A stretch of 64,000 nt of DNA from Waddliaceae bacterium. Lineage in GTDB: Bacteria > Chlamydiota > Chlamydiia > Chlamydiales > GCA-2709385. The DNA is taken from contig PAQS01000019.1 in assembly GCA_002709385.1 (NCBI GenBank), positions 186,001-250,000 on the forward strand, read 5' to 3'. The translations under genes and the position numbers were made by a program. This document shows, in pieces, positions 31,268-63,482 of this stretch. How positions within the stretch are numbered: position 1 is the first letter of the stretch; the number at the start of each line of letters is the position of its first letter. The notes beneath the pieces were generated by a model that ran no database searches, was not told the DNA's origin, and saw only the letters and a list, made by a program, of their open reading frames with translations.

Positions 31268-31378
31268 GTAGTTCCATAACCCTAAACAACTTCTATCTTT
31301 TCAAAAACACTTTCCAAAGATGTCTCTTCTCTGTTAGAGTGCGGAGTGATAAGTCTGCACGACCAGCAGGGGCCGAAC

Positions 31379-33214
31379 ATGACCAAAGATGAGCTTGAGG
31401 GCAATAGTAAGCCCGTTTACGACGTTGAAATTCCTGATTTAGAGTACTTTATTAAACAAATTGATTGTCGAGATGGTTGCCCGGTCAATACCGATGGTCG
31501 GGGCTATATGATGGCCTTGCATCAAGGAGATGTTCTCGAGGCTTATAAAATTGCTCGTGGACCAAATCCGTTTGCATCAATTTGTGGTTTAATATGCGGT
31601 GCTCCTTGTGAAGTTGCTTGTCGACGCGATAGAGTAGATAAAACCCTAACAATTCGTGCTCAAAAACGTTACATTGATGAATGGTTTGGTTTAGATAAAG
31701 AAGCGCATATCAAATCTCTAGAATATAGTTATGCTAGAGGAAGCACTAAGCCCAAGCCTCTTGGAATAAAAGTAGCCTGTATTGGTGCAGGAGTGGCCTC
31801 TTTGACTTGTGCCCATGATTTACTTCGATTGGGATATGAAGTAGACGTATATGAGCAAATGGCTTTGCCGGGTGGGATGCTTACTTATGGGGTTCCGAAT
31901 TATCGCCTAAAGAATGACATTGTTGTTGCAGAGTGCGCGGCAATCGAGCATCTGGGGGCGAAAATCTATTATAACACAAAAGTTGGTCGAGACATCACTT
32001 TAGGTGACCTTGAAGAGAAATACGATGCTGTGTTTATCGGGAATGGTTTATGGAAATCTCGAGAACTTCCTGTAAAAGGTGCCGATGCTCCAGATATTAT
32101 TCGCGGTGTAGAATATTTAAAAGTTCTTGATAGCAAACGTCGCTGGAAGGTTGGTGAACGTGTTGTTGTTATTGGAGGGGGTAACGTTGCGTTTGACGTG
32201 GCCCGTTCTTCTGTTCGAAATGGGGCAAAGCAAGTAACGATGACTTGTTTAGAGTCTAGAGACGAGCAGACGGCTGACGAGTTTGAGATTGAAGATGGTG
32301 TTGAAGAAGGTATTAAAATCATCAATCGAGTTGGTCCGATTTCTGTAGAACGCGATGCTTCTGGAAAAATTAGTGGTTTAAGGGTTCAGGAAATCTACTC
32401 CTTGTTTGATCACCAAGGTCGTTTTTCTCCAAAATTTGTTCCTAATGCTCAATATGTCATTCCTTGTGACACAATTGCTTTGGCTATTGGTCAAAGTATG
32501 GACATGAGTCTTTTTGAGGGTTGGGGTCGGGTGAATGAGCTTGAGATGGAGCGCGGTGTTATCAAAGTTGAAGCGGGAACTGGTCGAACATCTGTCTCAG
32601 GTATTTATGCAGGAGGAGATGGGGCGTATGGTCCAGCATTATTCATTACTGCGATACGTCATGGGCAAGAATCAGCTCGCGCTATAGATGCAGATTTAAG
32701 GGGAACAAAGCCTTATAAAGAGTTTGTTGGTGAGTTTCAAACAATCCCCCCGATGCGAGATAAAGAGTATTTAAGAACCCAGTGGAGCTTGCCAACAATG
32801 CAAGATCCAGAAACTCGCCGCCACAACTTAAACGTAGTTGAAAATACTTACACAGAAGCAGAGGCTAGAGAGCAGGCAAGTCGCTGTTTGCAGTGTCATA
32901 CATCTCCCGTTTTTGATGGAAACCTCTGTATTAAATGTAATGGTTGTGTTGATGTGTGCCCTACAAGGTGTTTAAAGCTTATTCCTTTGTCGCAGTTAAA
33001 CATGGAAATGCAAAACGGGGCAATGAAGGTGGCTGTAGATAACTATTATGGGATCGAGTCTGGTGAAATTGAATCTGATGAGCTGGATGTAATAGGGTCA
33101 GCTATGTTAAAAGATGAAGATTTATGTATACGTTGTGGTTTGTGCGCGGAAAAGTGCCCTACACAAGCTGTGACAATGGATGTAATGAACTATTCGTTTA
33201 GGTGGATAGGTTAA
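31379..33214 (+). CDS. FAD/NAD(P) and 4Fe-4S oxidoreductase (GltD-like)
   Basis: A 611-residue cytoplasmic flavoprotein. The N-terminal Fe-S domain (about 20-120) has CRDGC and CGLICGAPCEVACRR, as in GltD and dihydropyrimidine dehydrogenase. Two Rossmann folds follow, for FAD (GAGVASLTCAHDLL) and NAD(P)H (GGGNVAFDVARS). The C-terminus carries two [4Fe-4S] sites, CIKCNGCVDVCP and CIRCGLCAEKCP, with an extra CLQCH before them. There is no GltB partner gene, and the gene heads the Rieske/cytochrome b/cbb3 operon, so it probably feeds electrons to, or draws them from, the quinone pool or a ferredoxin. I chose ATG 31379 with AGGGG upstream. Confidence 0.88.
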   Translation: MTKDELEGNSKPVYDVEIPDLEYFIKQIDCRDGCPVNTDGRGYMMALHQGDVLEAYKIARGPNPFASICGLICGAPCEVACRRDRVDKTLTIRAQKRYIDEWFGLDKEAHIKSLEYSYARGSTKPKPLGIKVACIGAGVASLTCAHDLLRLGYEVDVYEQMALPGGMLTYGVPNYRLKNDIVVAECAAIEHLGAKIYYNTKVGRDITLGDLEEKYDAVFIGNGLWKSRELPVKGADAPDIIRGVEYLKVLDSKRRWKVGERVVVIGGGNVAFDVARSSVRNGAKQVTMTCLESRDEQTADEFEIEDGVEEGIKIINRVGPISVERDASGKISGLRVQEIYSLFDHQGRFSPKFVPNAQYVIPCDTIALAIGQSMDMSLFEGWGRVNELEMERGVIKVEAGTGRTSVSGIYAGGDGAYGPALFITAIRHGQESARAIDADLRGTKPYKEFVGEFQTIPPMRDKEYLRTQWSLPTMQDPETRRHNLNVVENTYTEAEAREQASRCLQCHTSPVFDGNLCIKCNGCVDVCPTRCLKLIPLSQLNMEMQNGAMKVAVDNYYGIESGEIESDELDVIGSAMLKDEDLCIRCGLCAEKCPTQAVTMDVMNYSFRWIG

Positions 33215-33392: not shown

Positions 33393-33902
33393 GTGCCTAG
33401 ATACAGGAATTCGCTCAATATAGACAGCAAAAGCAATGATAATCAAGTTTCTCGGAGATCGTTTTTGGCGTTGCTTGGTGTCGCTGCCGGGCTGGGAGTT
33501 GCTCAGTTAGCTGGGGGTGCTTTATTAGGGTTTTTGTATCCTAACGCTCTTAAAACTCCACCTAGTGTATTTAGTTTAGGAAGACCGGAAGAGGTTTTGG
33601 CTAAAGAAGGAAAGCTCTTTATCCAAAAATATAAAGTATTTGTTGAAGTTAAGTCGGGAAAATTGCGCTGCCAAACAGCAGTTTGTACACATTTAGGTTG
33701 TACAGTTAATGCTGTTGAAACGGGTTATGCGTGTCCTTGTCATGGTTCAACTTATGATCTTGTGGGAGATAACGTAAGTGGTCCAGCTCCAAGGCCTCTT
33801 GTTTTTTTCCAGGCCTACAAAGGTGCATCTGGTGAGATTTTGGTAGATAAATCTAGACAAATTCATGAAGCATCAGAAGCTTGGTATGTTCCAGTTGCCT
33901 AA
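33393..33902 (+). CDS. Rieske iron-sulfur protein with twin-arginine signal
   Basis: A 169-residue subunit of a quinol:cytochrome c oxidoreductase, starting at GTG. The N-terminus carries a Tat signal [11 protein letters not shown] at residues 21-31 and a helix that would stay as a membrane anchor. The [2Fe-2S] ligands are in CTHLGC and CPCHGS (Cys/His pairs) near residues 107-127, with GPAPRPL after them. Cytochrome b follows 40 bases downstream. Tat export would be by the TatA/TatC pair at 15114-16258. Confidence 0.96.
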
Positions 33903-33942
33903 GGAGAAAGTGTGAAGTATTTATTTGGGAGAAGAACGACTC

Positions 33943-35268
33943 ATGGCTGATTTCAAAGGACGCCCCCGGGAGAGCTGGCTTAGCCACTTTCAGAATATGC
34001 CGAAGGCATTTGTTCGCTCGATTTTTCGCCACAACTATCCGAATAACGATGTTGATCGATCTGAAATTGTTTTTAAAAACTTCTTCTTACACTTTCATCC
34101 GGTTAAGTGTCATAAAAATTCGATAGACCCGTTTTACACACTGGGATTGGGAACAATTGCATTTTGCTTGTTTCTTCTTTTGGTGATAACTGGTGTGGTT
34201 TTGATGTTCTATTACATACCAGCTGAAGATAGAGCTTATGAAATTATGAAGGATTGGCAAGACACAACACCATTTGCCATGATGTTTCGTAATATGCACC
34301 GCTGGGGCGCCCATATGATGGTGCTTTTTGTGTTTTTGCACATGTCGCGTGTTTTCTACACGGGTTCTTATAAAGGAGAAAGAAAGTTTAATTGGGTCAT
34401 AGGTGTAATACTTATGGTCTGTACTTTATTGCTTTCTTTTACTGGTTATCTACTTCCTTGGGATCAGTTAGCTTTTTGGGCGATTACTGTTGGGTCTGAA
34501 ATTGCAGGGTATGCACCGGGTATTCCTGGAATGGAGCACAACATTAACCGATTAATGTTAATTGCTTCGACAAGTGTGGGACAAGACGCTCTCATTCGTT
34601 TCTATGTTCTTCATGTTGCTGTTTTACCTATCGCAGCGGGTACTTTAATTGGTGTTCACTTTTGGCGCGTGAGAAAAGATGGTGGGTTATCCAGGCCTGC
34701 TGATCGATATCGCCCCGACCCAATACGCGTTGTGCAGAGATCGGATACTAAAGAAGTTTATGCTCCAGGAGCAAAAAGAACATACGGCTTGATGGAGCTT
34801 GTTCGTGGAACATGTCCAACAGTTGATAAAGGACCATATAACTTTGTTTTTACTTGGCCGAATTTGCTAAGGGCTGAACTTGTTGTGTTCATGTTCACGG
34901 TTGTTCTTTTGTTTGGTTTGGCTTTCATTGATGCGCCTTTAGAAGAGCCTGCAAACCCTTTTAAGCCGCCTAACCCTTCTAAAGCACCTTGGTACTTTCT
35001 TGGTTTACAAGAAATGGTTGCTTACGATGCTTTTTGGGGAGGGGTTGGAATTCCAGGATTAATCGTTTTAGGTTTAGCTGTTATTCCTTATTTAGATCGC
35101 AATCCACATGGAGATGGGGTTTGGTTCCACCGTAGTCGTTTTCAGGCTATTTTTTGGTACACCTTTTTTATGACCTCTCAGGCGATTTTAGTAATTGTAG
35201 GAACTTTTTTCCGTGGTGCGAATTGGGGATGGATTATCCCTTGGACCGAAAACTATGCTCGACATTGA
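33943..35268 (+). CDS. Cytochrome b (b6/b type, N- and C-terminal parts fused)
   Basis: A 441-residue inner-membrane subunit that carries two b-haems and the quinone sites of the bc-type complex. The haem ligands are paired in MHRWGAHMMVLFVFLHMSRVF and LHVAVLPIAAGTLIGVHF, with the usual 13-15 residue spacing. FTGYLLPWDQLAFWA and PSKAPWYFLGLQEM (the PEWY-like region, here PWYF) mark the Qo side. The C-terminal IV-subunit part continues in the same frame. I chose ATG 33943 over TTG 33925 for the GGGAG site. No cytochrome c1 gene is seen; the next gene supplies the c haems. Confidence 0.95.
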   Translation: MADFKGRPRESWLSHFQNMPKAFVRSIFRHNYPNNDVDRSEIVFKNFFLHFHPVKCHKNSIDPFYTLGLGTIAFCLFLLLVITGVVLMFYYIPAEDRAYEIMKDWQDTTPFAMMFRNMHRWGAHMMVLFVFLHMSRVFYTGSYKGERKFNWVIGVILMVCTLLLSFTGYLLPWDQLAFWAITVGSEIAGYAPGIPGMEHNINRLMLIASTSVGQDALIRFYVLHVAVLPIAAGTLIGVHFWRVRKDGGLSRPADRYRPDPIRVVQRSDTKEVYAPGAKRTYGLMELVRGTCPTVDKGPYNFVFTWPNLLRAELVVFMFTVVLLFGLAFIDAPLEEPANPFKPPNPSKAPWYFLGLQEMVAYDAFWGGVGIPGLIVLGLAVIPYLDRNPHGDGVWFHRSRFQAIFWYTFFMTSQAILVIVGTFFRGANWGWIIPWTENYARH

Positions 35269-35285: not shown

Positions 35286-38200
35286 ATGCGTTCTGATTTA
35301 TACCAATGGGCACTCATTCTGCTTACTTTGGTTGCAACAGCATTGTTTGGTAGCTTTTTTATTAGAGAGCTATTTCCAGAATATAAGGTATATCAAAATG
35401 CCTATCTAGAGATGGAGGAGTTCCGCTCTACATATACTGGAGATCCTGTGCCGGTTTTTAAGGGTGGAATTCAGCAAATTGTTTTACCTAGAAATGATAC
35501 TCACCCAGAAAAAATTGATCGTTGTGTTTCTTGCCACGTTGCATTAAAGCTTGAGCATTTTTCACCAACGAAGGTTGCAAAAGATTTAAACGGCTCTGTT
35601 TTAAGAGATGAGTCTGGTAAGCCTGTTCTTGTTCCGAATGAAAACTATGTTTGGGGACGTCTTGATGCTAAAGTAAGTGAGTTGCGAGATGAAGCTGTAA
35701 ATGAACAATTGAAACAAAATGGGAAAACGGGTGAGGTTCGCTCTCGCTTAAAAGAAGCTGATCGCCTAGAGGCAATGAAGTCTCATGATTTAGGTCATGA
35801 ACAAGTTGTCGACATGACTAAAGTTCTTGCAATGCATCCATTGATGGGAAATGAGGAACGTCCTTTTGAGTTACACTCCATGGAAGAGTATGGTTGTGTA
35901 TCTTGTCACTCGGGTAATGGAAGAGGTTTAGTTACTGATAGAGCTCATGGTCCTGTTTTTGACGGAACTTATCATGAAGCACATATGGGGCCTCATCCAG
36001 ATTTTACAGAGCCTGATCATGAAAATGACCCAAGTTTTGCTCGAGCGTTTAATCATAAACCAGGTCACAGACTTCTCTTCCAAACAACACCTCTGTTAGT
36101 TGGTCCACTCATGCAAGCAAAGTGTGTTCAGTGTCACCAAGGAGCTAAAGAGGAGTTAGAGTCTGTAGGTCAGTCTGTAGAGCTTATTACGCAAAGAAAA
36201 GAGCGTCATCTTGATTTGATTAAAGAAGGGATAGAGTCAGACTATCTTCTTTTGAGTTCAACTTTGAATTTAGTTCAATCTCTTCAAGATAAGGGTTTTG
36301 ATGCCACTGTAGAACTAATGCGAAAGCAGTTACAGGATTATACGATTCTTCCAGAAGAAAGAGATCAAATTTCTACTCGTCTTTCGTTCTTGCGAAATGC
36401 TCAACAGGATTATAAGAAAAATGAGATTGAGCAGGCTGTTTCTGAAAACTTACTAGATAAAGCGCTTTTTGTTGTTGGTAACAAGCAAGTATTAGATGCT
36501 TTGTTGGCAGAGGCAAGAAAAGAAGAGCTAACACCTTTAAAAACAAAAGCTATTCTTAATGAAATAAGTAATGATTTGCTTTCTAGTGGCTCTCTTGCAG
36601 CTAAATTAAATAGTTTAGATCAAAACCAAGAGTCTTTATCTAGAATTCAGCAGGCACACCGTCCTTTTACAGAGATAAGTCAAGATTATAATGTTATGAA
36701 GCCTCTTAAGTCAGATGCTGAATACATTTCAAGCTTTGAGCGCGGGAAAAGCCTTTTCTTCTCTAACGCTTGTTACGCTTGTCATAGAATCAATAACTTA
36801 TCTAAGGGTGGGGTTGGTCCTGAGTTAACAGAAATCGGCTTGTATTATCCTTGGTACATTAAAGAGTCTATTGTTTGGCCTCAATCAAACTTGAAATCTT
36901 CTACTATGCCAAATTTCCGTTTGGATCATGAAGAGATAGAAGATTTGATGACTTTCCTTATGGCACAAAGAAATGATGGAAAGTCTTCTGCAGAGTTTAT
37001 TCAAACCGTAGCCCTTCGTGATTGGGAAGCGGGTAAGAAGCTTGAGTACGAACGAGAAATACACCCTACAAAAGTAAATGACCTAGAAACAGGTATGGTT
37101 GTTTTTGCAACAGAAGGTTGCGCAAGCTGTCATAAATTACGGGGTTATGAGTCGAATGTAGGTTTTACTGCTGAAATGGAAGGAGCTTCGGAAGAGGCAC
37201 TTTATTCAGAGAAAAAGTGGTTTACTCGTCTATTTCCTGAAGGTTTATTGGGGTCTGAAATTGCACGTATTGTAGAGGAAAATCGCGATGAAATTCTTGA
37301 GAGAATTTCTGTTGATGTTCGTAAGGATACACTTCTTGAAAAGATAGAAGAGCAATACCCTAAGACAATAGAGTCTATGTATTCTAACTTTAAGTTTGCT
37401 GCGAGAGCAAAAAATAAATACTACAACGATAAAGCAAAAGAGGCTTCTTCTTCTTCAGAAAAAGAGAATGCGCTTGTTTCTTTAGAGCAATATAAGGAAG
37501 CTTTGAATCGAGTATTTATGACTTATATTCAAGAATATGGTCTTGGACGAGATATAGCACCTAGGTTGCATTGGTCTGGTGTTTATCGCGATAGTGAGTG
37601 GTTAATTGGGCACTTTAGAAACCCAGCGTCACATACAGCGAAGTCAATCATGCCTGTAATGCCTTTTGATGATAGTAAGTTCTATGCTTTGACACATATG
37701 CTTACTGTTCTTGGAAAGAAAAACAGAGATGAGACTCGTAAAGTCTGGGATCGTTTAGGTTTTTATCCTGAAGAGGCTTATATCGAGCTTTGTGCTTCTT
37801 GTCATGGTCAGCATTTTCATGGAAATGGACCAATTGCTGAATGGATTTATCCTGTTCCAAAGAACTTAAGAAACGCGACATTTTTACGCAATCTAACTCG
37901 TGAAAAAGCAATTGAATCTATTGTTCATGGTGTTAGAGGTGGGCCAATGCCTCCTTGGGGAGAAACTCATGTTGGTGGTTCGCCAGTATTAACACAGAAT
38001 GAGATAGAGCAGTTAGTAGACTGGTTATATACTTCACTTCCTGGTGGGCGTGTGATTGAGGACGAAAGCGTAGACAAGTGGCGTTATGAACCTGAAGATG
38101 TTCTAGAGGACCTTAAAAAAGAGCGTTCAACAAGCCCATTTTCTCAAAAAGAAAACAGACAATCGCTTAACTCATCTTGTGAAGATGAAGAGGTCATGAA

Positions 38201-39353
38201 GGAACTTTTGAGTGGAATTAATACATGTAAAGATTTCTATGTAGATACAAAACCAAAAGTTTATATTGACTCATCAGAAAAAACGCTTTCTGTAGAAGAT
38301 ATTTTTGATGTTCAAGTCGGTGAATCAGGCGATAAGTCATACTTTGTAAAAGAAAGCTTTCATACAGCTGAAAATATAGAAGCTGGAAAAGGCTTGTTCC
38401 TTGTTAATTGTGCTCATTGTCACGGTAAAGAAGGTGCTGGAAACGGTGAAAGAGCGGTTGTCATGAATGATGCAAAACCACGGATGTTGTCGAATATGCC
38501 GTGGTTACGTACTAGAGATGACTTACGTTTACTTAGATCAATTAAGTATGGTGTTCCTGGAACTTCAATGACGCCTTGGGGTGATAAAACAAGCGCTTTG
38601 CAGAGAATGCAAATTGTAGTTTTTATTCGTTCTCTTACTGAAGAGAAGAAAATTAGAGATGAGTTAACAAGTAGTCTTTATGAAATTTTTGAAACGTCGG
38701 TCATTAAAATAGAGCTTGCTCGTGCAGAGTTGATGAAGCAGGCTAAGGAATTAGAGTCTGAATATAAAAAGACAAAAGATGTTCGACAGTCACTAGAGCT
38801 TGCTGCTAGTTTAGATGAAAATAAGTCAAAAAAAGCTGTTCAAGCTTATTACAAAGAGCTTGAGCAAAGCGCAAAACTTAATCGATTTCGTAGAGTTGAT
38901 CAATTGCTTAAGCAGTTGATCGAAGAAGTGAAGGTTGAGCAACAGGTTTATGAAATTTTGGGCCAGTCTTTAATTTTGAAAACTTTGAAAGCAGAGCCTG
39001 TTGGAAAGTTTTTTGATTTATTAGAGGTAAACAAGGGTAGGTTTACTTCTAAAAAAGATCAAATTGAGTTTATTCTTCGTTCTGATTTTGACTCAGAAAT
39101 TTCTAGCCGAGTAGAGCACTTGCTTTCGTGGATTCGAAATAAGAAACAGCTTGCAGAGAAGCAGCAGGTTTTAGCCTCTGGGAAACTAAATTCACCGCAG
39201 AAGCGCGAAGAATTAGAAAATATAAATAACGAAGTGTTGTCCATGCAAAGTATGGAAGAAAAACTTTTGGTGAGTATGAGCCAAGCTAAAGCTAGCCGAG
39301 CCCGCCAGCGAGATTTGTTTCAAGCTTTTGAAGAGAATGCTGAAGACCTGTAG
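35286..39353 (+). CDS. Giant seven-haem c-type cytochrome, bc-cbb3 linking protein
   Basis: A 1355-residue protein with an N-terminal membrane helix (LILLTLVATALFGSFF, about 10-27), so it is anchored and faces the periplasm. Seven CxxCH haem sites are at residues 80-84, 204-208, 280-284, 496-500, 612-616, 836-840 and 1042-1046. Likely axial Met ligands lie in TMPNF, IMPVMPF, PMPPWG and MTPWG. Between and after them are long helical/coiled stretches, and the last ~190 residues are coiled coil. Position between cytochrome b and CcoN suggests it replaces both cytochrome c1 and the CcoP haem domains. I know no family of exactly this build. Confidence 0.85.
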   Translation: MRSDLYQWALILLTLVATALFGSFFIRELFPEYKVYQNAYLEMEEFRSTYTGDPVPVFKGGIQQIVLPRNDTHPEKIDRCVSCHVALKLEHFSPTKVAKDLNGSVLRDESGKPVLVPNENYVWGRLDAKVSELRDEAVNEQLKQNGKTGEVRSRLKEADRLEAMKSHDLGHEQVVDMTKVLAMHPLMGNEERPFELHSMEEYGCVSCHSGNGRGLVTDRAHGPVFDGTYHEAHMGPHPDFTEPDHENDPSFARAFNHKPGHRLLFQTTPLLVGPLMQAKCVQCHQGAKEELESVGQSVELITQRKERHLDLIKEGIESDYLLLSSTLNLVQSLQDKGFDATVELMRKQLQDYTILPEERDQISTRLSFLRNAQQDYKKNEIEQAVSENLLDKALFVVGNKQVLDALLAEARKEELTPLKTKAILNEISNDLLSSGSLAAKLNSLDQNQESLSRIQQAHRPFTEISQDYNVMKPLKSDAEYISSFERGKSLFFSNACYACHRINNLSKGGVGPELTEIGLYYPWYIKESIVWPQSNLKSSTMPNFRLDHEEIEDLMTFLMAQRNDGKSSAEFIQTVALRDWEAGKKLEYEREIHPTKVNDLETGMVVFATEGCASCHKLRGYESNVGFTAEMEGASEEALYSEKKWFTRLFPEGLLGSEIARIVEENRDEILERISVDVRKDTLLEKIEEQYPKTIESMYSNFKFAARAKNKYYNDKAKEASSSSEKENALVSLEQYKEALNRVFMTYIQEYGLGRDIAPRLHWSGVYRDSEWLIGHFRNPASHTAKSIMPVMPFDDSKFYALTHMLTVLGKKNRDETRKVWDRLGFYPEEAYIELCASCHGQHFHGNGPIAEWIYPVPKNLRNATFLRNLTREKAIESIVHGVRGGPMPPWGETHVGGSPVLTQNEIEQLVDWLYTSLPGGRVIEDESVDKWRYEPEDVLEDLKKERSTSPFSQKENRQSLNSSCEDEEVMKELLSGINTCKDFYVDTKPKVYIDSSEKTLSVEDIFDVQVGESGDKSYFVKESFHTAENIEAGKGLFLVNCAHCHGKEGAGNGERAVVMNDAKPRMLSNMPWLRTRDDLRLLRSIKYGVPGTSMTPWGDKTSALQRMQIVVFIRSLTEEKKIRDELTSSLYEIFETSVIKIELARAELMKQAKELESEYKKTKDVRQSLELAASLDENKSKKAVQAYYKELEQSAKLNRFRRVDQLLKQLIEEVKVEQQVYEILGQSLILKTLKAEPVGKFFDLLEVNKGRFTSKKDQIEFILRSDFDSEISSRVEHLLSWIRNKKQLAEKQQVLASGKLNSPQKREELENINNEVLSMQSMEEKLLVSMSQAKASRARQRDLFQAFEENAEDL

Positions 39354-39386
39354 GTAAAAGGGTTTACTATTTAGGGAATGATTTCT

Positions 39387-40808
39387 ATGACGGAATATAA
39401 CGATAAGCCAGTCAAGTGGATGCTATACCCTTCCATAATATTTATGGTTATAGGGATGCTTGTGGGGGTGTTTGCCTCTGTGAACGGGTTTATTTTGCCT
39501 GACTATTTTGCTGGAGAGTACATACACTTTGGCCGAATTCGTCCTGTACACGTAAGCCATGTGACACTTTTATGGTTGCTTGCTGCTGATATGGGATTGA
39601 TCTATTACATTGTACAAAGACTAACAGGTGTCCCATTGTGGAGCCATAAGCTCGCAATTGTTACTACTATTGGGTATTGGGGCTCTGTAACTTTAGGAAC
39701 TTATTCACTTCCTTTTGGTACAAATGCTGGTTGGGAATATGCTGAACTCCCTATGTTACTCGGTTTTTTGCCTATTAAATGGCTTGTAGAGGCTTCTTGG
39801 GGTTTGTTTGCTGTAAATATTTTTATGACAATAGCAAATAGAAAGTACAAAAAAATGTATGTTTCTCTTTGGTATACGATGGGAACGCTTCTTTGGACAA
39901 CTTTCGTTTATGCAATTGGTAATTTAATAATGGATCTTGTTCCTTATGGAATATCCAGGGTAAACGTGAACTTCTTTTATGTTCATAATTTGGTGGGTTT
40001 AACATTTACGCCTTTAGGGGTTGCGATCGCTTATTATTTTATTCCTAAAACAGCGAACACACCTTTATATAGCCACAAATTGTCTATGATTGGTTTTTGG
40101 TCGATTGCTTTTGTGTATGCTTGGATTGGTGCTCACCATATGATGCATGGACCGATTTCTCAGTGGCTTCAAACGGTAGCTGTTGTGTTTTCTGTTTGGC
40201 TTTGGATTCCTGTTTGGACTGTTGTGACAAATTTCTTTGCTACTATGAAAGGTCAATGGGGACAGTACGCAACAAGTGCTCCCGTTCGATTTTTGATGAT
40301 GGGGACTGTTTTTTATTTACTTGTTTGTCTTCAGGGTCCGTTGCAAGCTTTAAGAAACGTAAACGAAATTACTTCGAAAACAGACTGGATCATTGGGCAC
40401 GCCCATATGGCACTTTATGGAACATTTACTTTCTTTGCTATTGGTGGAATTTATCATGCTATTCCTCAAATGGTAAGAAAACCTCTTTGGTCACAGGCCC
40501 TTGCTGATTGGCATTTTACCTTAAGTTTAGTTGGGGGAATGGTCTTTTTTGTTTCTTTGTGGGTTGGTGGATTTTTACAAGGTCTAACTTGGGCAAACTG
40601 GGTCAATGGATCAAGTTATGCTGAATTCCATAATAACCTTAGTCAAATGTCTTTCTTGCAAACAGTAAGTGATATGTGGGTTTGGTGGGCTTTAAGAAGC
40701 TTTGGAGGGGCCTTGATTGCTGCTGGAGGTGTTTTGTTTGCAATTAATATGTTCAATACAGTTGTCCTTAAAGGAAACGAAGAGATGCAAAAAGGGGCTG
40801 AGGCATGA
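39387..40808 (+). CDS. ccoN: cbb3-type cytochrome c oxidase subunit I (CcoN)
   Basis: The 473-residue catalytic haem-copper subunit with about 12 membrane helices. Ligand histidines are in RIRPVHVSHV, HHMMHGPISQ (copper-B pair) and HAHMALYGTF, all as in CcoN, together with a downstream GGIYHAIPQM. Reduces O2 at low tension and pumps protons. I took ATG 39387, nine bases after AGGGA; the ATG at 39378 is too close to that site. It is fused in order with ccoO by an ATGA-type overlap. Confidence 0.96.
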   Translation: MTEYNDKPVKWMLYPSIIFMVIGMLVGVFASVNGFILPDYFAGEYIHFGRIRPVHVSHVTLLWLLAADMGLIYYIVQRLTGVPLWSHKLAIVTTIGYWGSVTLGTYSLPFGTNAGWEYAELPMLLGFLPIKWLVEASWGLFAVNIFMTIANRKYKKMYVSLWYTMGTLLWTTFVYAIGNLIMDLVPYGISRVNVNFFYVHNLVGLTFTPLGVAIAYYFIPKTANTPLYSHKLSMIGFWSIAFVYAWIGAHHMMHGPISQWLQTVAVVFSVWLWIPVWTVVTNFFATMKGQWGQYATSAPVRFLMMGTVFYLLVCLQGPLQALRNVNEITSKTDWIIGHAHMALYGTFTFFAIGGIYHAIPQMVRKPLWSQALADWHFTLSLVGGMVFFVSLWVGGFLQGLTWANWVNGSSYAEFHNNLSQMSFLQTVSDMWVWWALRSFGGALIAAGGVLFAINMFNTVVLKGNEEMQKGAEA

Positions 40809-42076
40809 AAGAGTCACACGAAGGGTTCATGCATAAATTAGATAAATCGGCTGTGTTGACAGTGATTGGAATTCTACTTCTTTTTTCTTCTGCTGTTGGA
40901 GTAACACTGATTGCTCCTAGTTATGTTGATCCAAGTTGGACCGAGGTTGCTAGTCCTTATCAAAGGCAGATGTATGAAGTAGCGGATCCTAATTTATATG
41001 TAAGTACTGCTGCGACTGGTGGTGATGAATTACAGTTAGCTTATCATATTAAAGATGGTTATACGCTTCTAGCGTTTGCTGAAAGTGAAACTGTTCGAAT
41101 TATTGCTCCACCCGAGTTAGAAAAGTATGTAACTCGACATGGAGAATCTCGTTTAAAACTCTCTTCTAAATTGATGCTTTTACGTGAAGCTAACGCTGAG
41201 GGAGATAGAGGGAGACAGGCTACAGCTCTTCAAGAAAAACTACAATCACAGTGGCGTTCTAGTCATTCTCAAAGCGCTGCAAAAGAACTGCGCATGCCTC
41301 GTTTTGATATTTTAGAGTTGTATGAGCCTGAAGCTAAAGAGGCTTTTGCCCTAGCTGAAACAGACGGAATTCTTGAAAATTGGGTTGATAGCGAATTTGT
41401 TATTCTAGATGAAGAGGTAAAACAGCGTTATCACGAAGATCCCGGTGTTCTTTATGTGAGCAATCCTAAAGAGTATCGAATTGCACCATTTCGTTTCGGC
41501 AAATCTTCTGGGTTTCAGTATGATCCAAACGGTCGTTCAATTGCCAGTTTAGATGAGTTAAAAAGCCCTGAGCTGGGATTTATGAGCCGAGAGGAGTTAA
41601 TACAGCTTGGAGAAGATATTTACCGCATAGAGGGTTGTTGGTATTGTCACACAGATCAAACAAGAACTCTTGTTCAGGATACTATTCTTAATGGTTCTGA
41701 GACAAATGCAGCTCCACCATCTTCTGCGAATGAATATGTTTATCAACGCGTAACGTTTCCTGGAACGAGACGGATTGGTCCTGATATTTCTCGAGTGGGA
41801 ATTAAGCGCCCAAACCGCGATTGGCATAAAAGTCACTTTTGGTCACCAAAGACAGCTAGCGCTGGTACAATTATGCCTTCGTTTCGACACTTTTTTGATG
41901 ACGATCCTCGAGGAACAAGTAAAAGCCCTGTTGGCATTCCAAACTATAAGTTTGAGGCTATTTTCCAGTATCTTATGACAAAAGGAACAAGAATCACAGC
42001 ACCAACTCAAGCTTGGTGGCAAGGTCGCGATCCTGTACAGACTACAAAAATTATTGAAGGGCAGAAGAAGGTATGA
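40805..42076 (+). CDS. ccoO: cbb3-type oxidase monohaem subunit CcoO, extended
   Basis: An inner-membrane anchored cytochrome c. An N-terminal helix (about residues 18-35, VLTVIGILLLFSSAVGVTLIA) is followed by the haem site CWYCH at residues 278-282 and the distal Met in TIMPSFRHFF, typical of CcoO. At 423 residues it is about twice the usual length. The extra ~180 residues lie between the helix and the haem domain (about 60-240), polar and Glu/Arg-rich, without further CxxCH. It overlaps ccoN upstream and ccoQ-like downstream by four bases each. Confidence 0.9.
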   Translation: MKESHEGFMHKLDKSAVLTVIGILLLFSSAVGVTLIAPSYVDPSWTEVASPYQRQMYEVADPNLYVSTAATGGDELQLAYHIKDGYTLLAFAESETVRIIAPPELEKYVTRHGESRLKLSSKLMLLREANAEGDRGRQATALQEKLQSQWRSSHSQSAAKELRMPRFDILELYEPEAKEAFALAETDGILENWVDSEFVILDEEVKQRYHEDPGVLYVSNPKEYRIAPFRFGKSSGFQYDPNGRSIASLDELKSPELGFMSREELIQLGEDIYRIEGCWYCHTDQTRTLVQDTILNGSETNAAPPSSANEYVYQRVTFPGTRRIGPDISRVGIKRPNRDWHKSHFWSPKTASAGTIMPSFRHFFDDDPRGTSKSPVGIPNYKFEAIFQYLMTKGTRITAPTQAWWQGRDPVQTTKIIEGQKKV

Positions 42077-42303
42077 AGCAAATAGATACGCTAATAGACC
42101 CTATTTTATCTGTTATCGATGTTAGTGATGTAACAGGTTTTTCTGGAGCTATTTTGCATTTCAGCCTTTTATTAGCCCTTGTGGGAAGTACTTTGCTGGT
42201 GTTTCTGTATTTGTGGAAGAATAAGCGGTTGGATATGGATGAAGATCCAAAATATCAAATGCTACGTGGCGATGCAGATGATTTATCGAGAAAAGGAGAA
42301 TAG
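42073..42303 (+). CDS. CcoQ/CcoS-like small oxidase subunit
   Basis: A 76-residue one-helix protein: FSGAILHFSLLLALVGSTLLVFLYLW (about 23-48) then a tail DMDEDPKYQMLRGD. The tail resembles CcoS/CcoQ ends (DPKYRML). Its start overlaps ccoO. Its position between ccoO and the CcoP-like gene fits CcoQ, which stabilises the CcoNOP core. It is distinct from the CcoS-like gene at 33219. Confidence 0.65.
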   Translation: MKQIDTLIDPILSVIDVSDVTGFSGAILHFSLLLALVGSTLLVFLYLWKNKRLDMDEDPKYQMLRGDADDLSRKGE

Positions 42304-42305
42304 GT

Positions 42306-42593
42306 ATGGAAGATGATGATGCTGCAATTTTAGATGATTATGCAGGTGGCGAAATTAAAGAGTTTGCCAACACCAAGCTTCCGTCTTTTCTGAAAATTTC
42401 TTATTTCTTCATTGCTCTTTGGGGTTTTGTTTGGTTGTATATGTTCTGGGATGGAAGTTTTGGTTGGGTAGATCGTGGTTATTGGAAAGAACTAGAGCAA
42501 GTTGCAAACACAACGAAGTCTTATAGAGAAGAGTTTTCCAATAAAAAACAGACTCCAGAAGCGCCTCACCACGAATTTAATCAGAATAACTAA
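42306..42593 (+). CDS. CcoP-like subunit lacking the cytochrome c domains
   Basis: A 95-residue protein. DDYAGGEIKEFANTKLPSFLK at residues about 10-30 resembles the CcoP N-terminus (YDGIeEydNplPrWW), followed by one helix (ISYFFIALWGFVWLYMFW) and a short tail. Normal CcoP has ~300 residues and two CxxCH domains; none is here, although the frame ends naturally. It is the last gene of the operon. The missing haems could be supplied by the seven-haem cytochrome at 35286. Confidence 0.7.
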   Translation: MEDDDAAILDDYAGGEIKEFANTKLPSFLKISYFFIALWGFVWLYMFWDGSFGWVDRGYWKELEQVANTTKSYREEFSNKKQTPEAPHHEFNQNN

Positions 42594-51467: not shown

Positions 51468-53123
51468 ATGCTTGTTCGAGGCATATCCTATGCGCTAAAC
51501 AGCAATTACCAGACATCGCGGACGAATTTAGAAGTGTCTATGCGTAGGCTGTCATCTGGTGATAAGTTTGCAAAAACAGGGGTTGAGTTAGGTGGAGAAC
51601 TTTCTGTTTCAGAAAGGTTCAGGCATCGTATTCGTTCAGCTGAAGCTTCTATCAATAGCGTTCAAGCTGGTATGTCTTTTTTGCAAAATGCTAGTGAAAA
51701 CATTGATACAGTCTATCAGATTTTAAATCGTATGCAGGAAATTGCGGCGGCAACAACTGATCCGATGATTACTGCTGATGATCGTGATGTTTTTAATGAA
51801 GAGTTTCAGTTGCTCAAAGCTGAAATCCCAGAGATTTCACGACAGGCTCAATTTTTTGGGAAACAAACGGTAGGAAGAGATACGATTGTTTCCTATGATG
51901 CGAATACAAAAAAATTACGTTTTTGGCAGCCAACAGGTGATGATCCTCAAGAGATTAGTAGAAAATTCGATTCGGATGCTACAGATGTAGAGCAGTCTAC
52001 GATTGGTTTTGATCCATCCGAAGATTTTAGTATGAGTCGAGATGGGAAAAGTTTGTTCTTTCTTGGGAATGAACCTGGAGATGGAGCCGGGGTTCTCCGT
52101 TTGAAGCGTTATGATATTGATACGCAAATGGTGACAACAAGTTCCGACTTGTACGCAACAGGTGATAAGTTATTTGTTCAGGAAGATGGACAATTATATG
52201 TGAACGGCAGTGGGACTCTTTATGATATTGATGAAGGGGGGTTAAGTCGAACTGCAACAGCTATTACTGACATGACAGCAGATACTGAGTTTACCATCTA
52301 TAACGATGCAGTTAAATACTATCGTAGTAGTGACAACCGAATTGTCAGTTATGATTTGAATACAGCAACAACGACGCAACTTACAGCTCCAATTACTTTT
52401 GCATCAGGAGGTGTCGATCATTCTTTTTCAGGATCGGGACGGTTTATTGCTGACGAAAGTGTTGCGGGTACTATTCGTGTGATTGATACCAGCACAGGTA
52501 ATACAGCTACTTATAATGTAGGTGCAGGAACAGCTCTTAACAATTTAAAATTCAATGAAGATGGTGATCGCATTTACTTTATTGATCAGGATGGAGCTTC
52601 TGTTCATTACATTAATGTTGGCGTTGATAGAGATGATAATATTTCTCTTACTGCAGGAGCTAAAGTTATTCAGGGAACAAATTCAAGTTCCTTTAATGGT
52701 TTAGATCTTGGAGGAAGCAATTATGGATCATCTGTAAGTTTTGTACTAAGTCAGGATAGTGTATCCGTTCTTAGTTATGAAGCGGCTGATTTGAGTTTGT
52801 ATGCTTTGGGGCTTTCTGATACGAGAGTCGATACAATTGCTAATGCAGAGACAGCTCTCAGTGATTTAAAAGAGGCTTTAAATAGAACGAATGCTGAAAG
52901 AGCAAAAATTTCAGCAATGGCAAGTCGTTTTGAGCATGTCATGAATAGTCACCGAAACTATATTGCCGATTTAACAAACGCTGAGTCTCAGATACGCGAT
53001 GTCGATTTAGCTAAAGAGACAGGATATTTTAGTGCAATGCAGGTGCAGAACCAGAGTGCAACAGCAATGTTAGCTCAGTTTAACAATTTATCAAAAAATG
53101 TAATGGTTCTATTGAATAGTTAG
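51468..53123 (+). CDS. Divergent flagellin with propeller-like insert
   Basis: A 551-residue flagellin-family protein. Residues 1-135 are the D0/D1 helices (NSNYQTSRTNLEVSMRRLSSG, then FLQNASENIDTVYQILNRMQEIA), and about 455-551 are the matching C-terminal helices (AESQIRDVDLAKETGYFSAMQVQNQ). The middle ~300 residues repeat short strands with SRDGKSLFFLG, NEDGDRIYFIDQ and GSGRFIADE turns, as in TolB/WD-like beta-propellers. N- and C-termini are more divergent than in the two flagellins at 59591-63482. The next gene follows nine bases later, so the two form an operon. No classical sigma-28 promoter was found upstream. Confidence 0.85.
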   Translation: MLVRGISYALNSNYQTSRTNLEVSMRRLSSGDKFAKTGVELGGELSVSERFRHRIRSAEASINSVQAGMSFLQNASENIDTVYQILNRMQEIAAATTDPMITADDRDVFNEEFQLLKAEIPEISRQAQFFGKQTVGRDTIVSYDANTKKLRFWQPTGDDPQEISRKFDSDATDVEQSTIGFDPSEDFSMSRDGKSLFFLGNEPGDGAGVLRLKRYDIDTQMVTTSSDLYATGDKLFVQEDGQLYVNGSGTLYDIDEGGLSRTATAITDMTADTEFTIYNDAVKYYRSSDNRIVSYDLNTATTTQLTAPITFASGGVDHSFSGSGRFIADESVAGTIRVIDTSTGNTATYNVGAGTALNNLKFNEDGDRIYFIDQDGASVHYINVGVDRDDNISLTAGAKVIQGTNSSSFNGLDLGGSNYGSSVSFVLSQDSVSVLSYEAADLSLYALGLSDTRVDTIANAETALSDLKEALNRTNAERAKISAMASRFEHVMNSHRNYIADLTNAESQIRDVDLAKETGYFSAMQVQNQSATAMLAQFNNLSKNVMVLLNS

Positions 53124-59590: not shown

Positions 59591-61420
59591 TTATGGAAGA
59601 AGTCGTAAAATATTTTGAGCGTTTGTGTTGTTTTGCCCAAGCATAGAGATACTTGTTTGAGAAAGTATTTGTGCTCTTGTGAGCTCTGTTGTTTCCTTAG
59701 CAATATCAACATCACGTAGTCGGCTTTCAGCTTGAGCTAGGTTATCTCTGAACCCAGTGTTTGCTGAGTGAGTAAAGCTTAGACGGCTCACTTGAGATCC
59801 TATGATAGCGCGTTGATTTGCAACCATATCAATAGCTCCAGAAATGGACTTGATTGCTGCTTGAGCGTTATCTTCATTTAATACATCAAGAGAGCTAATC
59901 CCTAACTTTACAACACGTACATCTGCTAATTCGAAATCAACATCCATACCTGCATCAGCACCAACTTGGAATTCATAGCGACTTGCTGGGGTTCCACCAC
60001 CAACAGAAAGCCCCATGTTTCTAGCAGCCATACCAGAATTATACGCACCTAGGTGACCTGCATTATCATTGCGAATCACTTCTGTATCGTACAGTTCAGG
60101 TTTACCGTCTGAAGCCAAACGAATGCTTGCTCGTTTGATTGCGTTTTCATCGCTTGTATTACCTGTATCGGTCCAAAATAAATTATTGTTTCCGTCAAAA
60201 CCTAGAGCTGCAACCGAGTTGGTTCGGCTTCCCATAGACTGTGTGATATATTCACCAGAAGGTATGTGAATAATTTTAACATTACCCACAGTGCCATTTT
60301 CATCTTCAAAAGCCATGTACTGACCATCTTGAGAAATGGCATAGGTTTCGCCTTTATTAAGACCAAAAGTGGTGCTAATATCGTTTAAAAGAATTTCTTT
60401 GCTTGTTGTGTCGTAAATACTCTGCTTTACTAAGCGGTGTGGAGCAGTACCTGTACTACGCTCTATGTAATAGATGTAGTCATCATGTACAGCAAAGTTA
60501 GAGAAGCTAGATGCTAAAGTAACACCACCGGCCCATTTATTTGAAGCGCCAGTACCACCATCATCTAATGTGAAGGCATCTACATCTAATAAACGAACTC
60601 TAAACTGTTTATCATCTGTAGTAGCTGCTGTAGAAGGTTCAGAAACCCACACGCGACCTTGGTTATCCATAACTAAACGAGCTTGGTTGGTAGCGGAAGT
60701 ACCTCCAGCTGAATCCATAGCTAGTGTTGTAAGTTGATTACTTTCTATATCCAGTTTCATCAGAGTTTTCTGTGCAGAAAGACTGTCTACACTTTTTTGA
60801 GCTACGTAGATCAGATTTTTTCCATCGTCAGTGAACATGAAGTCACCAACAGACCCATTTGCTGCCGAGCTCTCAAAAGCGTATTTAATGCCGTTTGCTG
60901 CAGCATTTCCATCGCGGAAATTGATGCCTACATCATGGATTTCACTACCATCAGCTTGTGAATAGGTAATTTTGTGATTTAGGTTATCGTATACAGCAAC
61001 AGCTGTTCTTCCATTCACTGATAGTTTGTTGTATTTACCAGCTTCAGATATACGAGCTACTTCATTTTTTAATTGTTGGAATTCCAAGTCGAGGTTTTTA
61101 CGATCCCCAGTGCTTTTTGAACCATCTGCTGAAGATACAGCAAGTTCACTCATTCTATCTAGAATGTTATGTACTTCTTGTAACCAACGGTCTGTTGATT
61201 GCATTAAGTTGATTGCGTTTTGAATGACACCGCTAGCAGCTTCTGAATTGCGGATTTGAGCTCTGAATCGCTCAGAAATACCTAGATCAGCAGGAGCATC
61301 TCCTGGGCTTGTCATTTTTTGTCCTGAAGAAAGACGACTCATAGCGTTTTGTAGGCGACTATTTTGATCACCATAGTTGCTAATGAACGTTTTATATGTT
61401 GCATTATTGGCAATGATCAT
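59591..61420 (-). CDS. Flagellin 2 with propeller-like insert
   Basis: A 609-residue flagellin. D0/D1 helices at residues 1-140 (NATYKTFISNYGDQNSRLQNAMSRLSSGQ, then INLMQSTDRWLQEVHNILDRMSELAVSSADGS) and at about 515-609 (MVANQRAIIGSQVSRL, AESRLRDVDIAKETTELTRAQILSQ) match classical flagellin. The middle ~360 residues carry repeated TDDGKNLIYVAQK, SQDGQYMAFED and GNNNLFWTDT strands like beta-propeller blades. It is a close tandem paralogue of flagellin 3. A TCCGATAC element lies about 90 bases upstream. Confidence 0.93.
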   Translation of the reverse strand: MIIANNATYKTFISNYGDQNSRLQNAMSRLSSGQKMTSPGDAPADLGISERFRAQIRNSEAASGVIQNAINLMQSTDRWLQEVHNILDRMSELAVSSADGSKSTGDRKNLDLEFQQLKNEVARISEAGKYNKLSVNGRTAVAVYDNLNHKITYSQADGSEIHDVGINFRDGNAAANGIKYAFESSAANGSVGDFMFTDDGKNLIYVAQKSVDSLSAQKTLMKLDIESNQLTTLAMDSAGGTSATNQARLVMDNQGRVWVSEPSTAATTDDKQFRVRLLDVDAFTLDDGGTGASNKWAGGVTLASSFSNFAVHDDYIYYIERSTGTAPHRLVKQSIYDTTSKEILLNDISTTFGLNKGETYAISQDGQYMAFEDENGTVGNVKIIHIPSGEYITQSMGSRTNSVAALGFDGNNNLFWTDTGNTSDENAIKRASIRLASDGKPELYDTEVIRNDNAGHLGAYNSGMAARNMGLSVGGGTPASRYEFQVGADAGMDVDFELADVRVVKLGISSLDVLNEDNAQAAIKSISGAIDMVANQRAIIGSQVSRLSFTHSANTGFRDNLAQAESRLRDVDIAKETTELTRAQILSQTSISMLGQNNTNAQNILRLLP

Positions 61421-61655: not shown

Positions 61656-63482
61656 TTATTGCAAGAGTCTGAGAACGTTTTGCGCGCTACTATTTGCTTG
61701 TGTGAGCATAGATATGCTTACTTGTGATAGAACTTGCGCTTTCGTTAATTCGCTTGTTTCTTTTGCGATATCAACGTCTCGAATCCTGCTTTCAGCTTGT
61801 GATAGATTGTCTTTAAATCCTGTGTTTGCAGAGTGTGTAAATCCAAGTCTACTTACTTGTGAACCGATAACAGCTCTTTGGTTAGCTACCATGTCGATTG
61901 CACCGGCAATTTTTGTGATAGCGGCTTGTGCTGAGTCAATACTTAATACATCTTGATCACTGATTCCAAGACGAGTTAATCGTACATCTGCAAGCACAAA
62001 ATCTACGCTCATATCTTGGTCTGGACCTACTTGAAATTCATATCTTCCAGCAGGACTTCCACCGCCTACAGACAGACCCATATTTTTTGCTGCTTGGGTA
62101 CTATTATATGCTCCAAGATGACCAGCGTTTTCACTGCGCAATGTTTTGATATCAAAAACTTCAGGAACGTCTCCGTTTAGACGGATTTGAGCACGTTTTA
62201 ATGCATTTTCATCCGTTGTCCCTCCCGTATCAGTCCAATAAATACGGTTATTTGCATCAAAATCAAGGGCTGCGATAGAGTTTGCTGCTGTACCTAAAGG
62301 AACAGAAGTAACCTGTCCAGAAGAAATATGAACAACTTTTAATGTTCCTGCAGTTCCGTTTTCATCTTCAAAAGCTAAGTATTGACCATCTGAACTAATG
62401 GCGTAAGTTTCACCTTTATTTAGACCAAAGTTTACACTTAAGTCATCCATCAAGGTTTGCTTATTTGTTGTGTCGTTGATGTGTTGTTTTACCAAACGAT
62501 GTGGGCTTGTACCTGTACTGCGTTCGATGTAATAAATATAGTCATCATGAACAGCAAATTCAGAGAAGCTTGAAGCTGTGGTTACGCCACCGGACCAGTT
62601 GTTTGTTGCTCCAGTACCACCATCGTCTAAAGTGAATGAATCCATATCAATCATACGAACTCTAAACTGATTATTAGCTCCTCCTCCCGCTGTAGATGGC
62701 TCGGAAACCCAAATTCTTCCTTTGTTATCCATGACTAATCGAGGTTGTGATGTCGCAGATGTTCCACCAGCGGATTCCATAGCAAGTGTGGTGAGAGTAT
62801 CGCTTTCAATATCTAGTTTCATTAAGGTTTTTTGTGCAGATAAAGAACCGATACTTTTTTGTGCTACATAGATGAGGCTTTTTCCATCTTCACTGAATAG
62901 ATAGTCTCCAACAAATCCGTTGCTTGCAGAGCTTTCAAAAGCGTATTGGATACCATTTTTAGAAGCATTTCCATCCATGAAATTCTGATCGAGCATTGCT
63001 TTCTCAGAGCCATCTGCTTGGCTATAGACAATTCTATGCTTTAGATTGTCATAGACAGCGACTGCAGTTTGTGAATTCACGGATAAGCCGTTGTATTTTC
63101 CTGCTTCTGAAATTCGAGCAACTTCTGTTTTTAATTGTTGAAACTCAAGATCTAAGTTCTTTCGGTCACCAGAGCTTTTAGAACCATCTGCTGCAGATAC
63201 AGCAAGTTCACTCATTCTATTCAATATACTATGAGTTTCTTGTAGCCATCGGTCAGTAGACTGCATCAAGTTGATAGCGTTCTGAATAACGCCGCTAGCG
63301 GCTTCAGAGTTACGAATTTGAGCACGAAATCTTTCTGAGATACCTAAATCAGCTGGAGCTTCTCCAGGTGTAAGTAGACGCTGTCCTGATGAAAGACGAC
63401 TCATAGATGTTTGGAGTCGGCTGTTCTGTCCTGCATAGTTACTAACAAAAGTTTTATAAGTGGCGTTATTGGCGATCAACAT
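61656..63482 (-). CDS. Flagellin 3 with propeller-like insert
   Basis: A 608-residue flagellin, close to flagellin 2 over its whole length (same INLMQSTDRWLQE, SAQKTLMKLDIES, YIYYIERSTGT and SRIRDVDIAKETSEL landmarks). N- and C-terminal helices are best conserved, the middle strands less so. GGAGGAAAG precedes the ATG. Its promoter region, with a C tract, is described separately. Tandem order suggests duplication; the two may form one filament or alternate. Confidence 0.94.
   Translation of the reverse strand: MLIANNATYKTFVSNYAGQNSRLQTSMSRLSSGQRLLTPGEAPADLGISERFRAQIRNSEAASGVIQNAINLMQSTDRWLQETHSILNRMSELAVSAADGSKSSGDRKNLDLEFQQLKTEVARISEAGKYNGLSVNSQTAVAVYDNLKHRIVYSQADGSEKAMLDQNFMDGNASKNGIQYAFESSASNGFVGDYLFSEDGKSLIYVAQKSIGSLSAQKTLMKLDIESDTLTTLAMESAGGTSATSQPRLVMDNKGRIWVSEPSTAGGGANNQFRVRMIDMDSFTLDDGGTGATNNWSGGVTTASSFSEFAVHDDYIYYIERSTGTSPHRLVKQHINDTTNKQTLMDDLSVNFGLNKGETYAISSDGQYLAFEDENGTAGTLKVVHISSGQVTSVPLGTAANSIAALDFDANNRIYWTDTGGTTDENALKRAQIRLNGDVPEVFDIKTLRSENAGHLGAYNSTQAAKNMGLSVGGGSPAGRYEFQVGPDQDMSVDFVLADVRLTRLGISDQDVLSIDSAQAAITKIAGAIDMVANQRAVIGSQVSRLGFTHSANTGFKDNLSQAESRIRDVDIAKETSELTKAQVLSQVSISMLTQANSSAQNVLRLLQ

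Follow-up and report, generated by a model that had tools for sequence, protein, structure and literature searches.

The closest described relatives of the system considered here are the Rieske/cytochrome b complexes of the anaerobic ammonium-oxidizing (anammox) bacterium Kuenenia stuttgartiensis (Kustd1480-1485 and Kuste4569-4574; PMC12954380), which combine a b6-like cytochrome b with a subunit IV, have a hexa- or octahaem cytochrome c instead of cytochrome f and lie next to an NAD(P) oxidoreductase. A bound cytochrome c that joins complexes III and IV is known from the engineered bc1-cbb3 of R. capsulatus (PMC7876108) and the actinobacterial bcc-aa3 (PMC8361435), which have c1 or a dihaem c. 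Published reconstructions of Chlamydiae list PetBD and CcoNO (PMC9816063), and the passages of that paper considered here mention neither a linker nor a flavoprotein nor a reduction of CcoP. In this study, we analyzed an operon of a Waddliaceae bacterium located in a stretch of 64,000 nucleotides (the window; positions 186,001 to 250,000 of contig PAQS01000019.1, assembly GCA_002709385.1). It encodes, in this order, an iron-sulphur (FeS) flavoprotein, a Rieske protein, a fusion of b6-type cytochrome b with subunit IV, a heptahaem cytochrome c of unusual size (the giant), CcoN, CcoO, a CcoQ-like open reading frame (ORF) and a CcoP stub. We consider it probable that these genes make up two modules, in which the giant replaces both the c1 and the carrier of a Rieske/b complex of the Kuenenia and acidobacterial type and docks on CcoO of a reduced cbb3 oxidase. 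The less expected result was that the bc part groups with the NAD(P)-linked complexes of the anammox type, with an oxygen reductase as its neighbour.

Judged from its sequences, the bc part of the chlamydial operon is related to the anammox Rieske-b complexes that contain multihaem and NAD(P)-oxidoreductase subunits. When compared with 177,635 PDB sequences, the Rieske protein had Kustd1480 (9rk3, 3e-18) and Kuste4569 (9rk4, 1.5e-14) as its top two matches and closest solved relatives. The cytochrome b haem ligands H125/H139 and H230/H245 are invariant and have b6 spacing, and the best PDB match of this protein was a cytochrome b6. Thus, a b6-like cytochrome b and subunit IV are present as in Kuenenia, although they are fused in the chlamydial operon and the c subunit is heptahaem. 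The FeS-flavoprotein (622 amino acids (aa)), which is FAD/NAD(P)-binding with four predicted [4Fe-4S] sites, parallels the adjacent Kuenenia oxidoreductase and is a candidate for the NAD(P) oxidoreductase subunit in the complex. Kustd1485 resembles the giant in its very large size and its long helices. Unlike Kustd1480-1485, the chlamydial operon runs on into cbb3 genes and so has an evident oxidase partner.

A single scan of genome contigs outside Chlamydiota reached Acidobacteria, in which operons with the order flavoprotein, Rieske, b6, subunit IV and octahaem cytochrome were found (L097-L103; L096 is partial). The upstream gene order and the flavoprotein gene are thus common to both phyla, whereas subunit IV is separate in Acidobacteria and fused in Chlamydiota. 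The acidobacterial c subunit (about 680-695 aa, eight CxxCH) is homologous to the giant over the N-terminus and haems IV-VI: a tblastn match of about 1e-12 begins at residue 9 of the giant, and profile comparison (99.7%, E 2.8e-25) aligned haems IV-VI. Since haem VI of the giant aligns with the last acidobacterial haem and motif VII lies outside the aligned region, what Chlamydiota seem to have added is limited to haem VII and the C-terminal helices. No ccoN or ccoO was matched in the retrieved flanks of the acidobacterial operons. Because a homologous multihaem c stands beside the acidobacterial Rieske/b6/IV genes and the Kuenenia complexes share this plan, the replacement of cytochrome c1 by the giant, which an earlier note on this DNA had proposed, is supported by these comparisons. 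Cytochrom_C1 had no match among the operon proteins, no genome-wide search for it having been made.

The giant has a single hydrophobic segment, which is N-terminal and would serve as an anchor. Its presumed layout is three His/His haems near the anchor, followed by class I domains of the His/Met type that carry long helical insertions; haems I-III may have the invariant H184, H197 and H221 as their distal ligands. All seven CxxCH motifs were kept in 20 of 21 aligned homologues, the exception (L045) lacking the motif IV His, and both the motifs and the candidate distal ligands show little or no variation. This conservation indicates that the seven motifs are not due to chance. Motifs I-V, His184, His197, His221, Met541 and Met789 are invariant even in the alignment of both phyla. 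Searches against known reductase families gave no match, the hits being confined to class I cytochrome c models and weak multihaem ones, so that the giant is not recognizable as a known reductase; its proving to be one was an outcome that the earlier note had named as refuting its proposal. Structure search with the giant gave no confident match (best 6h5l_B).

Features of the operon in the window (all on the forward strand)
Feature	Position	Strand	Remarks
FeS-flavoprotein, GltD/PRK12771-like	31346..33214	+	Pfam Pyr_redox_2, Fer4_20, Fer4; NCBIfam PRK12771 E 2e-120
Rieske [2Fe-2S] protein	33393..33902	+	Pfam Rieske 3e-10
b6-type cytochrome b fused to subunit-IV-like part	33925..35268	+	Pfam Cytochrome_B, Cytochrom_B_C; NCBIfam ExtP 1e-73, ExtQ; start probably ATG 33943, judged from homologues
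Giant heptahaem cytochrome c	35286..39353	+	1355 aa; seven CxxCH (residues 80, 204, 280, 496, 612, 836, 1042)
Haem motif I, CVSCH (80)	35523..35537	+	invariant in Chlamydiota and Acidobacteria
Haem motif II, CVSCH (204)	35895..35909	+	
Haem motif III, CVQCH (280)	36123..36137	+	
Haem motif IV, CYACH (496)	36771..36785	+	SoxX-like domain; candidate distal Met541 (STMPN)
Haem motif V, CASCH (612)	37119..37133	+	FixO-like domain; long helical insertion; candidate distal Met789
Haem motif VI, CASCH (836)	37791..37805	+	Cytochrome_CBB3 domain; candidate Met888
Haem motif VII, CAHCH (1042)	38409..38423	+	Cytochrome_CBB3 domain; candidate Met1095
CcoN, C-type haem-copper oxidase subunit I	39378..40808	+	COX1 2e-79
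CcoO	40805..42076	+	423 aa; FixO 1e-21; one CxxCH at 41636
CcoQ-like membrane ORF, 76 aa	42073..42303	+	ATGA overlap with CcoO; homologues in most operons
CcoP N-terminal stub, 95 aa	42306..42593	+	no CxxCH

All ORFs, coordinates and motifs given in the earlier note were found again, and the genes are conserved in relatives; its gene list had missed the CcoQ-like ORF and the FeS-flavoprotein gene, which belongs to the same conserved block as the Rieske, cytochrome b and giant genes. The source assembly (Chlamydiota, 3.15 Mb, 97% complete) is that of an amoeba-type chlamydia. Gene content and homology were computed here over 234 Chlamydiota genomes: the giant was present in 49, mostly with this gene order and with 43-51% identity in long matches, CcoN in 55, and both together in 47.

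The second module is a C-type oxidase that shares with canonical cbb3 (P. stutzeri, 3mk7) the CcoN active-site residues and the CcoO haem domain, and differs from it in the absence of CcoP haems, an insert in CcoO and the replacement of E323 by Gln. The CuB His, cross-link Tyr and haem His of CcoN were kept in 49 of 49 Chlamydiota. The same 49 all carry Gln at the E323 position (Gln319 here). C-type oxidases conserve this Glu strongly, and a search of the literature on the position returned nothing useful. As the earlier note had described, CcoO is enlarged: the alignment places an insert of ~180-200 aa after the membrane helix and before the haem domain, and structure searches with CcoO, including the fold of the insert, gave no match. 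The 95-aa stub, already recognized in the earlier note as a CcoP remnant, is, by profile evidence, the CcoP N-terminal domain: its family profile had only three PDB matches at E≤10, all of them CcoP, though each is weak on its own (best E 0.056), and the Pfam model FixP_N matched 3 of 24 family members (best E 4e-4). It should be added that another chlamydial genome (G059, contig 42; L150 736-3259) carries a second, distant CcoN (35%) and a CcoO-like protein with three CxxCH, whose GC content of 0.472 leaves their origin uncertain.

Other cytochromes and oxidases of the genome were sought by family profile searches. Outside contig C43, PF13442 and PF00034 found no cytochrome c but the giant, PF00115 found this CcoN only, and no dihaem CcoP was detected beyond the stub; CcoO is the other c-type protein, and a CcsA-type synthase is present. 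With no other cytochrome c outside C43, the giant is the only visible carrier and donor to CcoO, which agrees with the earlier proposal that it does the work of the soluble carrier. The cytochrome-domain genes of C43 (L053) were set aside as probable contamination (GC content 0.595 vs 0.385); the gene types on this contig are, we presume, those of Planctomycetes/Verrucomicrobia. A match on C24 was rejected as a thymidine-kinase-like ORF, and a raw count of CxxCH patterns as a cytochrome c census was dropped, most matches being due to chance.

Natural losses of the giant are informative. Eight CcoN-bearing genomes had no detected giant; one (G033) was set aside, being a fragmentary assembly in which the flavoprotein is still present. 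In the remaining seven, no giant lies upstream of ccoN (the sequence of L141 extends only about 2 kb upstream), the flavoprotein is missing or broken, with decayed flavoprotein and Rieske remnants upstream of ccoN in L140 and L144, and no cytochrome b was found except on a probable mitochondrial contig. That match (G069, contig 115; L172), a 133-aa frame with four TGA, was rejected as probably host mitochondrial DNA. Flavoprotein, bc genes and giant have thus been lost jointly. In all seven, the reading frames of CcoN, CcoO and the stub are open: six genomes, including one that is a single contig of 2.44 Mb, have the same haemless stub and a CcoO of 400-436 aa, and the seventh (61% complete) has a CcoO of 397 aa. 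The CcoN tree shows seven separate module losses, at least five of which are forced by supported branches. Two giant-bearing loci deserve mention on their own. An in-frame TGA interrupts the giant gene of a single-contig genome (G097; L020/L064), leaving a first ORF of 966 aa through early decay or sequencing error, and in L061 (1-5693) the giant is intact, the upstream cytochrome b is a 65-aa fragment and ccoN lies on a separate contig (L148), possibly a decay in progress.

A further signal was computed from CcoO itself. At near-invariant CcoO columns, change amounted to 0.041 per column in giant-less tips vs 0.016 elsewhere (Mann-Whitney p 1.7e-4), whereas near-invariant CcoN columns showed no excess change in these tips (p 0.33); the test was accompanied by a random-draw control and a paired comparison with sister lineages. 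The recurrently changed sites D365, D367 and G370 come just after the distal Met357 of CcoO. This CcoO-specific change fits the loss of a docking partner on the haem face, and would support docking of the giant rather than a permanent assembly.

On the reading that we favour, the first module would consist of the flavoprotein, the Rieske protein, b6-IV and the giant as a multihaem c subunit in place of c1 or f, and the second would be a C-type oxygen reductase pared down to CcoN, a monohaem CcoO, CcoQ and the haemless stub. The path that we infer runs from menaquinol through the Rieske cluster, the His/Met haems of the giant and the CcoO haem c to CcoN and O2. Docking of the giant on CcoO is plausible and may be either transient or stable, and most likely the giant hands electrons straight to an oxygen reductase that has no haem-bearing entry subunit of its own. 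The idea is that of the known supercomplexes, except that a single heptahaem subunit takes the place of c1 or a dihaem c and the modules are evolutionarily separable. Several points count against this reading. CcoNO clearly survives without the giant. The two-module picture is drawn here from sequence; the AlphaFold2 model of the giant (residues 1-1130, haem-free) is weak (pLDDT 71, pTM 0.55) and uninformative on docking, and in a genome that is 97% complete a small cytochrome c could have been missed. In addition, the CcoO test was conceived once the data were known, the tips that it compares are independent only in part, and lower electron flux after the loss could also relax CcoO.

The earlier note had gone further and proposed a permanently fixed supercomplex: the giant would have assumed the role of the CcoP haems, and CcoO would have grown, perhaps so as to hold it. 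The tight operon with its ATGA overlap between CcoO and CcoQ, the haemless stub and the change in CcoO once the giant is lost would all suit such an assembly, which we nevertheless regard as unlikely. The stub is equally haemless and CcoO equally large (397-436 aa) in giant-less genomes, so that the giant is not the cause of the CcoP reduction or of the CcoO enlargement, and these two parts of the proposal found no support in this form. Repeated loss of the first module with CcoNO kept means that a permanently fixed supercomplex is not required; moreover, ccoN is found 2.4 kb downstream in L094 and, in the L061 genome, on a different contig, and alignments do not support a CcoP origin of haem VII. 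If the giant were instead a terminal reductase or an electron exporter to another acceptor, the oxidase would have to be fed otherwise, for example by a TsdA-type dihaem thiosulfate dehydrogenase. Many multihaem proteins are reductases, and TsdA occurs in 34 of 55 CcoN-bearing genomes, including six of the eight without a detected giant; all six are among the seven loss genomes (4wqc E 1e-42), where TsdA is a possible alternative donor to the oxidase. This alternative seems to us improbable, considering that the present genome has no TsdA, that the giant matches no reductase family and that CcoO changes specifically upon its loss. As TsdA is also found in 28 giant-bearing genomes, it is not a substitute arising upon loss, and no anticorrelation with the giant could be observed among the CcoN genomes (n=55, p 0.70). 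TsdA was identified in 35 Chlamydiota genomes in total, 34 of them with CcoN, and adjoins a DoxX/HvfX-like membrane protein in five of the six giant-less genomes that have it. The pair is exemplified by L166 (8199-9541) and relatives.

Another possibility is that O2 drives bifurcation, with one quinol electron reaching O2 by way of the Rieske protein, the giant and cbb3, and the second one reaching the flavoprotein by way of the b haems to form NAD(P)H, as proposed for Kuenenia. The flavoprotein, with its four predicted FeS sites, accompanies the bc genes in both phyla and disappears when they do. Two VitK2_biosynth (MqnA/MqnD family) genes in the genome suggest menaquinone as the quinone, alongside a Rieske protein whose motif CPCHGSTY, found in 38 of 38, contains the Ser/Tyr pair linked to high potential (PMC12954380). 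A mismatch between a high-potential Rieske protein and a low-potential quinone has been discussed as support for the NAD(P)H formation proposed for Kuenenia, and by analogy the same mismatch might hold in this chlamydia. Cytochrome b His56, which does not vary among 43 Chlamydiota and two Acidobacteria, may be the counterpart of the proposed inter-dimer haem ligand (His43/His62 in Kuenenia). However, the physiology is wholly inferred and for Kuenenia likewise a proposal (PMC12954380), and the flavoprotein may run in reverse or act alone. We therefore hold such bifurcation to be even less likely than the fixed assembly. More doubtful again is its full form, in which menaquinol would be bifurcated between O2, reached through the giant and the CcoP-less cbb3, and NAD(P)H formed on a cytoplasmic flavoprotein, as an oxygen-linked version of the anammox proposal.

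Elsewhere in the window, three flagellin genes with full N- and C-terminal domains were observed (51468-53123, 59591-61420 and 61656-63482), which is unusual for a chlamydia.

Our results connect respiration in chlamydiae with the NAD(P)-associated Rieske/b complexes, which have up to now been studied in anammox bacteria. The bc module has been lost several times while an oxidase of one c haem was kept, which provides natural before/after pairs for the study of how a minimal cbb3 is fed. Since the oxidase is supplied as a high-potential sink, the proposed bifurcation could be tested in amoeba-grown bacteria and, if true, would represent an oxygen-linked, anammox-like mechanism in intracellular bacteria.

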